DNA of 5,954 nt, taken from Thermoleophilaceae bacterium (lineage in GTDB: Bacteria; Actinomycetota; Thermoleophilia; Solirubrobacterales; Thermoleophilaceae). The number at the start of each line of letters is the position of its first letter. The first letter of the stretch is position 1. The notes under the pieces are model-generated. The model searched no databases. It was given only the letters and a program-made list of their open reading frames with translations, and was not told the DNA's origin. This document shows, piece after piece, positions 3,479-5,954 of the stretch. A program made the translations under genes and the position numbers. The stretch covers positions 1 through 5,954 of the forward strand of contig JACCUO010000050.1 in the NCBI GenBank assembly GCA_013811765.1, read 5' to 3'.

Positions 3479-3530
3479 CCGAGGGGGGAGGGCCATCAGA
3501 TATCTGTCTAACCCGTCTCTCCCCCCTCGG
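3479..3530. repeat. 12-bp perfect inverted repeat enclosing the ppx stop codon
   Basis: CCGAGGGGGGAG (3479-3490) and CTCCCCCCTCGG (3519-3530) are exact reverse complements 28 nt apart. The loop holds the perfect palindrome CAGATATCTG (3497-3506) and the ppx stop (3508-3510). One arm lies inside the ppx coding end and encodes AEGGE. The octamer CTAACCCG is repeated at 3474-3481 and 3508-3515. Neither strand has a proper U-tract after the stem, so this is not a textbook terminator, although it may act as an mRNA 3' stem-loop. Confidence 0.75.
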
Positions 3531-4467
3531 CTCCATCCTTTCCGAGTGCCTCGAGCGCGGCCCCGTGGAGGAGGTCGGCCTCGCTCGTCTCGACGGAGCC
3601 GAGGCCGAAAGCATGCATCGACTCGATCAGGATCACGGCTCCCGCCACGATCGTCGGCGCCCTGTCGGGGTGCAGGCCGGGTATCTCCCGACGCTCCTCC
3701 AGGGGCGCGGCGGCCAGCGTGGTGAGCATCCTCTGGCAGGCGCCGAGCTCCAGCCGGTAGCCGTGCACACGGCCGGGATCGTAGGGGTCGAGCGCCTGGT
3801 CGATAGCGGCAAGCGAGGTGGCGGTTCCGGCCACGGCGATCCCGGCATTCACCTCTTCCCGAACCTCCGCCGGGGCTCCCGCAGCCACGATCTGCCGCGC
3901 GGCGCCGGCCAACGCCTCCAGATCCTCATCGGACGGCGGATCGCTGCTGATGCAGCGCTCGGTGTGCCTGACCGAGCCGAGGCGGGTGGACACGTGGAAG
4001 CCAGGTGGATGTCCGGGGCGTCCGACCACGTACTCCGTGCTGCCGCCACCGATGTCGATCACAAGGGTGGCACCGGCGTCCTGTCTGGCCGAGGTCGCGC
4101 CGAGGAAGGTGAGGCGCGCCTCCTCATCTCCGCTGATCGTGCGGACATCGAACCCCGCCTCCTCGCGCACCCGGGGCTCGAGCTCTTGGCCGTTTCGCGC
4201 GTCACGCACCGCGCTGGTGGCCACGGCGATCGCCCGGACCGCACCGAGCTCGTCCGCGAGCCTGCGGTAGGCATGGAGCGTGTTGAGGACCCTCGCCATG
4301 GCGTCGTCCGCGAGCATGCCCGTGGCGTCCACGCCATCGCCGAGTCGGGTGACCTCGGTGCGGCGGTGAACCTCCGTGAGCAGGCCCGCCGGCCCGAGCT
4401 CCGCCACCAATAGCCGAGTCGAGTTCGTCCCGAGGTCGGCGACCGCGATTCGCTGCCCAGGTTCCAT
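3508..4467 (-). CDS. ppx: Exopolyphosphatase, Ppx/GppA family (short two-domain form)
   Basis: Protein of 319 residues in the ASKHA (actin-like) fold. By family knowledge it releases phosphate from the ends of inorganic polyphosphate and/or removes the 5' phosphate from pppGpp, in the cytoplasm. Motifs in order: phosphate-1 loop VADLGTNSTRLLVAE (residues 9-23), SGDEEARLTF with the expected catalytic Glu at about 115 (112-121), phosphate-2 loop VIDIGGGSTEYVVG (136-149), the GTATSLAAI motif (214-222) and the late GLHPDRAPTIVAGAVIL segment (264-280). The length fits the short actinobacterial Ppx form, which lacks the C-terminal HD-like domains of E. coli Ppx/GppA. The ATG at 4467 starts seven residues before the first motif strand, and no better in-frame start lies just upstream. 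No clear Shine-Dalgarno is present, and a TAGCGT -10-like box 10 nt upstream suggests a very short leader. It is divergent from the selenoprotein gene, 26 nt away. Which substrate it prefers cannot be told from sequence. Confidence 0.95.
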   Translation of the reverse strand: MEPGQRIAVADLGTNSTRLLVAELGPAGLLTEVHRRTEVTRLGDGVDATGMLADDAMARVLNTLHAYRRLADELGAVRAIAVATSAVRDARNGQELEPRVREEAGFDVRTISGDEEARLTFLGATSARQDAGATLVIDIGGGSTEYVVGRPGHPPGFHVSTRLGSVRHTERCISSDPPSDEDLEALAGAARQIVAAGAPAEVREEVNAGIAVAGTATSLAAIDQALDPYDPGRVHGYRLELGACQRMLTTLAAAPLEERREIPGLHPDRAPTIVAGAVILIESMHAFGLGSVETSEADLLHGAALEALGKDGAEGGETG

Positions 4468-4477
4468 ACGACGCGCA

Positions 4478-4487
4478 ACGCTACCCT
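4478..4487. promoter_or_regulatory. Overlapping divergent -10-like boxes between ppx and the selenoprotein gene
   Basis: Only 26 nt separate the two start codons. On the plus strand TACCCT (4482-4487) fits TANNNT and ends 6 nt before the ATG at 4494, which is the spacing of a leaderless transcript. On the minus strand TAGCGT (4483 to 4478) lies 10 nt before the ppx ATG. The boxes share two base pairs, so the two polymerases could not bind together. No convincing -35 hexamers are seen. Confidence 0.4.
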
Positions 4488-4493
4488 CGAAGG

Positions 4494-5081
4494 ATGTTCG
4501 GCATTGCAGCAGGGCGACAGCAGGTCAACCCACCCGCTGACGCGCGGGTCCTCGAGGACATCGTCGTGCGCGACTGGCACGGCCGCGACGTGAGGCTCGG
4601 AGGCATTTGGGCGGAGAACCCCGCCCTGCTCGTCTTCCTTCGCCACTACGGCTGAGCGTTCTGCCGAGACCACGCGGTTCAGTTGAACCGCGACCGTGAT
4701 GCGTTTACCGAGGCCGGCGCCCCCCTGGCCGTGATAGGCCAGGGCACGCCGGCGAACGCTGCCTGGTTTCGAGAGGAATTCGGGCTCGAGATCGACATCC
4801 TCGTGGACACCGACCGCCTGGCCTACAAGGCGGCCGGAACCAAGGTGGCCACCGTCGGCGAGCTCGTCGGGCCGAAGCTCGTGGCGCGCGGCCTGCGCCG
4901 CACCAGGAGGTCCGGCGTGCGCCAGGGCAAGATTGTCGGACACCCGGCGCAGCTGGGTGGGCTCATGCTCGTCACGCCGGGAGGCGGAGTCCCGTGGGTA
5001 CACCTCTCAGACGACGCCGGCGACTACCCGCCCAACCAAGAGGTGATCGAGGCAGTTCGAGCGGCTCTCGCCCCGGGGTGA
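4494..5081 (+). CDS. Probable selenoprotein: AhpC/TSA_2 (Prx-like) thioredoxin-fold protein with UxxC active site, in-frame TGA at codon 54
   Basis: Read through one TGA (4653-4655), this frame encodes 195 residues with continuous homology-like features on both sides. The thioredoxin-fold strand ALLVFLRHYG (44-53) is followed by U54-A55-F56-C57, then RDHAVQLNRDRDAF, the GQGTPANAAWF helix start (82-92), DILVDTDRLAYKAAG (101-115), QGKIVGHPAQLGGLMLV (144-160) and HLSDDAGDYPP (170-180). This order matches AhpC-TSA_2 (PRXL2-like) proteins, whose redox motif reads FLRHFGCxFC. The TGA replaces exactly the first, attacking cysteine. Such proteins are thiol-disulfide or peroxide oxidoreductases in the cytoplasm, and the related SelL family is known to contain selenocysteine. 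A hairpin suited to SelB binding lies 17 nt after the TGA. The ATG at 4494 has no separate Shine-Dalgarno and is probably leaderless. The alternatives are a sequencing error (TGC to TGA) or a pseudogene, but there is no other lesion. Ordinary gene calling would report only the part after 4683, without the active site. Confidence 0.87.
4673..4692 (+). promoter_or_regulatory. Putative bacterial SECIS hairpin for selenocysteine insertion
   Basis: CGCGGTTC (4673-4680) pairs perfectly with GAACCGCG (4685-4692) around an AGTT loop. The stem begins 17 nt after the TGA and the apical loop begins 25 nt after it. As I recall the general criteria for bacterial SECIS elements, they need a short stem, a small apical loop with a G in its first two positions, and a loop about 16-37 nt from the UGA. 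This hairpin meets all of them. It lies inside the coding sequence (HAVQLNRD). It uses the only TTG among the 18 leucine codons of this gene (Leu64), where the rest are CTN, which suggests the base pairing is under selection. Confidence 0.78.
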
Positions 5082-5085
5082 GCCC

Positions 5086-5097
5086 GCGGGTACCCGC
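5086..5097. repeat. 12-bp perfect palindrome abutting the tRNA promoter
   Basis: GCGGGTACCCGC is a perfect palindrome 4 nt after the selenoprotein stop, and it touches the -35 box of the tRNA promoter at 5098. It could be an operator or chance in GC-rich DNA. As RNA it would give at best a short stem and no U-tract. Confidence 0.5.
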
Positions 5098-5125
5098 TTG
5101 ACGATCGCTTCTCGGTTGCTACATT
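5098..5125 (+). promoter_or_regulatory. Promoter of the initiator tRNA gene
   Basis: TTGACG (5098-5103) and TACATT (5120-5125) with a 16-bp spacer are good matches to a housekeeping sigma promoter. The predicted start near 5132 leaves a leader of about 5 nt before the mature tRNA. The AT-rich -10 stands out in the GC-rich surroundings. Confidence 0.75.
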
Positions 5126-5137
5126 TGATGGTCGCGA

Positions 5138-5211
<74 letters not shown>

Positions 5212-5220
5212 TACGAAGAA

Positions 5221-5244
5221 GCCCCGCAAAAGCGGGGTTTTTTT
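5221..5244 (+). terminator. Rho-independent terminator of the tRNA gene
   Basis: CCCCGC (5222-5227), an AAAA loop and GCGGGG (5232-5237) are followed by seven T (5238-5244). The preceding GAAGAAG can extend pairing into the T-run. It starts 10 nt after the tRNA. Confidence 0.95.
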
Positions 5245-5275
5245 GTTTCTGGAGCCGCGTGTAGCGCTCCGCGGG

Positions 5276-5308
5276 GGGCCCAATAGGGGCCCAAATCTTT
5301 TCAAGATT
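5276..5308. other. Two small adjacent hairpins between the tRNA terminator and the convergent nucleotidyltransferase-like gene
   Basis: GGGCCC (5276-5281) and GGGCCC (5287-5292) can pair across AATAG. AATCTT (5294-5299) and AAGATT (5303-5308) can pair across TTC. They may serve the 3' end of the minus-strand gene, but no U-tract follows on either strand. The rest of 5245-5356 shows nothing recognisable. Confidence 0.35.
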
Positions 5309-5356: not shown

Positions 5357-5954
5357 TCACGCTTGGTCCTCGGCGGCCAGACGGAGACCGCCCGCAGCGC
5401 GCAGGATGTCGTCGACGTAGCCCTGCGCATCGGCGGCCGCTTCGTCCAGTTCTCCCGGCGCGGCGGGCTCGGCGATCGCGAAGCCGGCGGCTCGGGTGGG
5501 GCCGAGTCCGTCAGGTCCGTCGAAGTCGCGGACCAGGAGGCGCAGCGCACGCTGGACGATCGATGCGTGGCGTTCGGCGTGGGTGGCGAGACGCTCGGCG
5601 ATGGCGCGCCCGCGCCTGGGTGTGTGGCGGATGACGTAGACGAGGTCGTAGGCGTCCTTGGGCTCGCCGCGGTCGGCGAATGCCAGAGCCTTGAGCACGA
5701 CGAAGGCCGCCGGGCCGCAGACCGGTGCGGTGCGGCGGACGCGCTCGCCGTTGAGGCTGTGCCCGTCGAGCTCGACGAGCGTGCGCTCGTCGAAGGCCAG
5801 CTCGAGGCCGGGCGTCACGATCGCCCCGAAGTCGGACTCGAGCTTCTGGACGCGCATGGCCGCGGCCTGCTCGGGCGCGGGCGGCATGAGGAAGTCGACG
5901 ATGACTTTCAGCTCACCGAGGCGCCAGCGCTGGACGGTCTCGTTGCCGCTGTCG
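5357..5954 (-). CDS. Nucleotidyltransferase-like protein (AbiEii-like), C-terminal part, 5' partial
   Basis: The frame is open from the right window edge to the TGA at 5357-5359, with 198 residues visible. A Met at 5887 could be called as a start, but the 22 codons before it are open and read plausibly (RWRLGELKVIVDFL), so the gene most likely begins outside the window. VIVDFLMPP resembles the second acidic strand of a nucleotidyltransferase fold. VLKALAFADRGEPKDAYDL (nt about 5642-5695) matches the K-x-x-A...R-x-x-PKDxxDL signature of the AbiEii-type family, many of which are toxins or NTP-transferases of toxin-antitoxin pairs. The catalytic GS-x-D motif expected earlier lies off the edge, so activity cannot be judged. 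The C-terminal Ala/Asp/Glu-rich tail (AAPGELDEAAADAQGYVDDI) looks helical. It is convergent with the tRNA gene. No antitoxin partner is visible downstream. Confidence 0.7.
   Translation of the reverse strand, partial: DSGNETVQRWRLGELKVIVDFLMPPAPEQAAAMRVQKLESDFGAIVTPGLELAFDERTLVELDGHSLNGERVRRTAPVCGPAAFVVLKALAFADRGEPKDAYDLVYVIRHTPRRGRAIAERLATHAERHASIVQRALRLLVRDFDGPDGLGPTRAAGFAIAEPAAPGELDEAAADAQGYVDDILRAAGGLRLAAEDQA

Follow-up and report, generated by a model that had tools for sequence, protein, structure and literature searches.

The Prx-like gene and its neighbours

The window, the whole stretch of 5,954 nucleotides that was analysed, is contig C167 of a Thermoleophilaceae assembly (a bin of 1.53 Mb in 332 contigs, 68.6% complete). 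Two tandem paralogues of SpoIIE-type phosphatases (PF07228; 2-1381 and 1459-3228, plus strand), which have N-terminal parts rich in Arg and Pro as well as a hydrophobic stretch, occupy its first half, and a partial match to an AbiEii-like nucleotidyltransferase (22.1 bits against a Pfam cut-off of 22.5) lies at 5357-5953 on the minus strand. The locus between them contains the following features:

3508-4467, minus strand: ppx/gppA-family gene, divergent neighbour (ORF calling and domain match)
4494-5081, plus strand: predicted Prx-like (AhpC-TSA_2/SelL-related) selenoprotein gene, 195 codons through an internal UGA (domain matches, homologues)
4653-4655, plus strand: in-frame UGA codon, predicted to encode selenocysteine 54 at the first position of UxxC (TGA or TGC codon in close loci)
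4662-4664, plus strand: TGC, Cys57, predicted resolving thiol of UxxC (Cys codon conserved)
4673-4692, plus strand: predicted bacterial SECIS, 8-bp stem (4673-4680 with 4685-4692) and AGUU loop (4681-4684)
4683-4685, plus strand: UUG Leu codon beginning in the SECIS loop, start of a 132-aa fragment (ORF calling, homologue starts)
5138-5211, plus strand: tRNA-Met (CAU), downstream (found also behind relatives' genes)

The frame of the Prx-like gene runs from the ATG at 4494 to the terminal TGA at 5079-5081, and its sole internal TGA is codon 54, in the context FLRHYG-U-AFC. An earlier sequence-only reading had proposed this single frame, and its coordinates were reproduced exactly. The reading had also predicted that annotation would split the gene, and indeed ordinary ORF calling gave two pieces, one of 53 aa (4494-4655) and one of 132 aa (from the TTG at 4683 to 5081). 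Likewise, the ppx neighbour that it had named is real. No promoter-like site was found upstream of the Prx-like gene; one precedes the tRNA-Met (5098-5125).

Codon 54 and the hairpin behind it

We examined codon 54 in 26 close homologous loci, defined as the rows with E below 1e-45 in a search of 299 related genomes, 66 of which held a match to the Prx-like protein. The codon was TGA in 19 loci and TGC in 7, and nothing else; the 19 TGA loci come from 18 genomes, and the position of the codon was verified by alignment. The TGA thus falls at the first cysteine of the family's CxxC, as had been proposed, and the suggested database search with alignment at residue 54 returned homologues with TGA or Cys at this codon. 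The codon for Cys57 was Cys in all 28 aligned loci (18 TGA and 10 Cys). A wider sample of the class contained a match in 85 of 399 genomes, and many of the weaker matches also had one TGA, whose position was read only for those loci that were fetched. A relative at 80% identity, L015 of a Thermoleophilaceae bin, was left out of all counts; its place and length correspond to L017 of the sister genome G002.

The hairpin CGCGGUUC-AGUU-GAACCGCG begins 17 nt behind the UGA. The bacterial SECIS model described in section 5 of PMC13188914 has an apical loop of 3-9 nt, an upper stem of 4-16 bp, a G at loop base 1 or 2, 16-37 nt between UGA and loop, and a minimum free energy of at most -7.5 kcal/mol. 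The window hairpin lies within all of these constraints, with a loop of 4 nt, a stem of 8 bp, G as the second loop base, a distance of 25 nt and -14.0 kcal/mol for the 26-nt hairpin. Compared with shuffled sequences, the hairpin alone gave a z of -4.39, and the 45-nt segment around the UGA was only slightly better than its shuffles (z -1.23). In G002 the stem has one mismatch, and the 45-nt segment folds another way. An Rfam search of 4400-5300 gave no match to a SECIS family.

The stem covaries. In an alignment of 18 of the 19 close TGA loci (L071 being left out), 96.5% of stem cells were paired, with double changes at two pairs. The alignment was then taken to 23 TGA loci by adding L071 and 4 of 10 inspected distant TGA loci, namely those with the hairpin in register. 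Here 97.3% of cells were paired and six of the eight pairs showed changes on both sides, with a covariation score of 0.449 versus a shuffled mean of 0.171; slid versions of the stem were 19-51% paired. For four of the 23 loci in this strongest test, the hairpin was already known when they were included. The distant paralogues L056, L058, L069 and L070 (28-37% identical) share the geometry and the loop and have a largely different stem. At the same stem positions, pairing in Cys loci was 57.5% (n=10), or 69.6% in the 7 close ones.

The loop also leaves a mark on codon use. Its Leu codon is UUG in 17 of the 18 TGA genes and UCG (Ser) in the remaining one, and elsewhere in the same reading frames UUG makes up 4 of 276 other Leu codons (1.4%; the count spans 50 codons ahead of the UGA and 129 behind it, and so extends past the end of the cut L017 gene). 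UUG occupied the loop position in 1 of 10 Cys loci.

A covariance model built from the 18 TGA loci was tried as a test for Sec and rejected. It also finds the Cys loci L018 (49.7 bits), L067 (45.0 bits) and L028 (35.2 bits), and L018 outscores three of the four distant TGA paralogues. Since sequence contributes to its score along with pairing, the model is unusable for this purpose.

Side observations were made in the more distant genes. Genome G016 holds three TGA-containing Prx-like genes (L020, L069, L070), each with an AGUU-loop hairpin. Six of the ten inspected distant TGA loci (L044, L045 and L060-L063) are without an AGUU hairpin in register; these Prx-like genes have an in-frame TGA at the same alignment place (e.g. 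FLRHLA-U-LPCREHL) and other hairpins, in L062 a 7-bp stem in register with a different loop. They may represent further selenoprotein subfamilies in the class.

The hairpin also marks the proteins held in catalogues. A search returned 386 protein homologues; among the best 120 of these 386, 98 start after residue 54, 21 have Cys54 and one has Arg54. The start of the 98 is residue 64 in 65 proteins, 62 in 19, 55 in 5 and further on in 9, so that 84 of the best 120 of 386 start within the hairpin. Both residue 62 and residue 64, the loop UUG, are encoded within the hairpin, so the usual catalogue start is a piece of the predicted recoding signal. The DNA of the truncated catalogue proteins presumably carries the TGA, which for the window's own fragment was seen directly. 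The gene is thereby a clean example of a subfamily held in catalogues mostly without its active site.

Could the TGA be a real stop, and the Prx-like gene broken or split in two? The two pieces obtained by ORF calling would fit such a reading, as would the sister copy in G002, which is without the last 30 codons, and the own assembly, in which selA and selB were not found. However, the stop stands at one codon in 18 genomes, and the remaining 7 close loci carry TGC at this place without exception, never TAA or TAG. Furthermore, in the comparison with G002, 33 of the 53 changed codons behind the TGA (codons 54-165) are silent and 20 replacing; before it (codons 1-53), 13 are silent and 12 replacing. 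Together with the covariation of the hairpin, the TGA/TGC-only pattern and these codon changes reject a split, in agreement with the earlier claim of one gene rather than two, and we consider a real stop very improbable.

Signs of decay, named earlier as a refuting outcome, were seen only in G002, which lacks the last 30 residues; in the matched region, 17 of the 18 TGA genomes have no internal stop but the UGA. In the other 17 genomes, further stops first appear in frame 136-138 codons behind the UGA and are likely the gene ends. The second stop in L025, L026, L037 and L038 is likely terminal because of this position, and the genes of L024 and L071 end at contig ends. At the sister locus L015 (3495-3545, equal to L017 of G002), the gene match ends at codon 165 and runs straight into an apparent 3' half of tRNA-Met; ARAGORN found no tRNA in L015. 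The junction may mark a deletion or a past integration, or be an error of assembly.

Selenocysteine decoding machinery

The own genome encodes a tRNA-Sec (68.2 bits, anticodon UCA) and selD (389.8 bits). The tRNA call rests on Infernal and ARAGORN, and the minimum-energy fold of the strand is not a textbook cloverleaf; selD can also serve other selenium uses. In the 68.6% complete assembly, selA was not found, and selB gave only weak elongation-factor-like matches. The sequence-only reading had held that the host must decode Sec and had named the sel genes as the check, which was thus borne out for tRNA-Sec and selD and left selA and selB missing from an incomplete assembly.

The sister genome G002 has both selA and selB, at about L064 8342-10710. 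The tRNA-Sec regions of the two genomes are syntenic, with 78-80% DNA identity and 98% over 108 bp of the tRNA stretch. The match of our contig C161 to L064 covers 18981 down to 15363, and the contig ends 75 bases further on, about 4.6 kb short of the sister selB. For L064 6690-14544, the own assembly gave no match longer than 40 bases. A 477-base piece of L064 (14544-15020) matches inside another own contig, C237, and gene order near the break may therefore differ. The missing selA and selB are likely an assembly gap. As a side observation, two congeneric genomes have the tRNA-Sec gene in opposite orientations within syntenic flanks (L066 7501-7608 versus L065 6305-6412; 98% identical).

Most relatives with the UGA gene have the machinery. 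Among the 18 UGA genomes, tRNA-Sec (E <= 1e-10) was found in 15, selA in 15, selB over its cut-off in 14, and at least one of the three in 17. The frequency of selA in these genomes (15/18) compares with 108 of 281 in the others (Fisher p 2.6e-4, not corrected for kinship). In G231 (75% complete), which carries the UGA gene, selA was not found, selB gave nothing above its cut-off and no tRNA-Sec match reached E <= 1e-10; the last also holds for the UGA genomes G024 and G212. Six genomes have only a Cys homologue (E below 1e-28). In four of them (G006, G020, G026 and G134) selA is without a match, and neither selB (over cut-off) nor tRNA-Sec (E <= 1e-10) was found. The other two (G017 and G025) keep tRNA-Sec, selA and selB; machinery and UGA therefore do not track perfectly. 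Only tRNA-Sec matches at E <= 1e-10 were counted because the model is permissive with genomes as GC-rich as these: 222 of 299 passed its cut-off, and of 14 control genomes all gave some match and 5 passed it. Were Rfam's own cut-off applied, G024 with its UGA gene (52.1 bits) and G026 with a Cys gene and no selA (50.6 bits) would be positive. Five genomes of the genus gave FdhA-type matches, each below the family cut-off. None of these contained an internal stop, and thus no second selenoprotein comes from them.

A different route of reading the UGA, by near-cognate insertion of Trp or Cys or by a recoded UGA and not as Sec, would agree with selA and selB not being seen in the own genome. This is also most unlikely, given that tRNA-Sec (UCA) and selD are present, that TGA is also the terminal stop of the window gene and of many relatives, that the hairpin fits the bacterial SECIS model, and that selA accompanies the UGA gene across genomes. 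A sequencing or assembly error turning TGC into TGA in a metagenome bin, to which the Cys54 of the closest full-length catalogue proteins (75-78% identical; best 120 of 386) might point, has a negligible chance and is in practice excluded, since independent genomes from the genus, the family and the order share this TGA, and 18 genomes carry it together with a covarying hairpin.

Taken together, these results strongly support the selenoprotein reading of the window gene. Judged from sequence, 4494-5081 is almost certainly one gene in which the UGA at 4653-4655 is read as Sec, likely directed by the hairpin at 4673-4692, and it likely encodes a UxxC peroxiredoxin-like thiol oxidoreductase.

Protein family, proposed reaction and history of the locus

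In the read-through protein, AhpC-TSA_2 (PF13911) scored 55.2 bits (cut-off 27) over residues 63-171, which lie behind the TGA, and AhpC-TSA scored 33.2 bits (cut-off 26) over residues 22-117, a range that includes codon 54. The protein also just passed the NCBIfam model for SelL-related redox proteins (NF040769; 124.1 versus a cut-off of 120); of two Cys homologues, P0006 passes this model (135.6) and P0002 fails (115). SelL has a UxxU motif with a diselenide, whereas residues 54-57 here are U-A-F-C, and the protein is thus not SelL proper. The canonical peroxidatic motif of peroxiredoxins is PxxxT/SxxC; here R50 and U54 stand in place of P and T/S, and the protein was therefore named a Prx-like thiol oxidoreductase. 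The best solved relative by sequence was prostamide/prostaglandin F synthase (PDB 9us9; E 1.8e-9 for the single sequence, 4.2e-16 for the profile), which we take to be a member of the PRXL2 family. Its CxxC aligns with the UxxC of the window protein, with Cys instead of Sec, and the bacterial protein need not share the synthase's substrate. Bcp-type peroxiredoxins and ResA were the next solved relatives by profile.

If the prediction is correct, SelB with Sec-tRNA-Sec would bind the AGUU-loop hairpin and insert Sec54. Sec54 would then act as the nucleophile on a peroxide or a disulfide and form a selenenylsulfide with Cys57. A thioredoxin-type system may reduce this bond.

Several related selenoproteins have been listed. 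Table 1 of PMC13188914 includes UxxC/UxxU Prx-like thiol:disulfide oxidoreductases (PF00578), which, going by their description there, resemble the window protein in the Prx-like domain and in a UxxC with Sec first, although the latter scores higher for AhpC-TSA_2 than for AhpC-TSA. The UxxS AhpC/TSA_2 selenoprotein (pfam13911/cd02970) in the tables of PMC9312934 and PMC13188914 is, by description only, of the same Pfam family, with Sec first; the window protein has UxxC instead. UxxC redoxins (PF08534) appear in the tables of the same two papers, PMC2398784 gives several Prx-like UxxC groups, and PMC11291895 gives Prx-like selenoproteins in Asgard archaea. The AhpC selenoprotein of Blastococcus saxobsidens, as given in PMC5330540, is like the window protein an actinobacterial AhpC-type protein with a predicted bacterial SECIS, but Sec is encoded there by UAG with a CUA tRNA-Sec and here by UGA with UCA.

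UxxC Prx-like selenoproteins are thus already known, and the window gene newly adds a predicted one in Thermoleophilia. The earlier description of such proteins as little described in this lineage does not apply to the UxxC type as such; its lineage part goes by literature searches. The terms Actinobacteri, Actinomycetota and Thermoleophil are absent from the main text of PMC13188914. A search for Thermoleophilia selenoproteins, which covered titles and abstract openings and left most subscription journals outside its scope, gave nothing evidently on this family among the matches listed. A correct reading would place a likely selenium-dependent redox enzyme in a class without a selenoprotein paper among those matches.

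The neighbours of the gene recur in relatives. In the close set, ppx adjoins the gene in at least 10 of 26 loci and tRNA-Met lies behind it in at least 8 of 26, and every one of these loci comes from the family to which the window belongs. The counts are lower bounds because the fetched flanks were at most about 1.5 kb, some shorter. The Cys versions L018, L027, L028 and L030 all have ppx beside them, and L018, L028 and L030 also have tRNA-Met. Since these neighbours are common to Sec and Cys versions, both forms occupy one locus, and Sec gain or loss at the ppx-prx locus can be tested in close relatives. No plasmid record contained a relative of the Prx-like gene.

Genus g3 (G006, G020 and G026) has the Cys form beside ppx, with no selA match and no selB over cut-off. 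A tree made by a quick method from 68 rows (30 loci, 20 of 21 Cys54 proteins and 18 of 98 truncated proteins) contains at least six Sec/Cys changes, or seven if truncated proteins count as Sec; 23 of its 64 forks are open. The g3 Cys sequences are placed among those from a different family of the order, which makes transfer possible. We see an even chance that the window gene belongs to a wide, mostly mis-annotated set of Thermoleophilia Prx-like selenoproteins. Such a set would share one SECIS code (an 8-bp stem with AGUU at a fixed offset behind the UGA, the stem sequence being exchanged between paralogues), with repeated Sec/Cys swaps, at one syntenic locus with loss of the decoding machinery.

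In a separate observation, the Cys paralogue at L067 931-990 (minus strand) keeps the 8-bp stem, with the loop GCCU instead of AGUU. This stem is likely a relic of Sec use.
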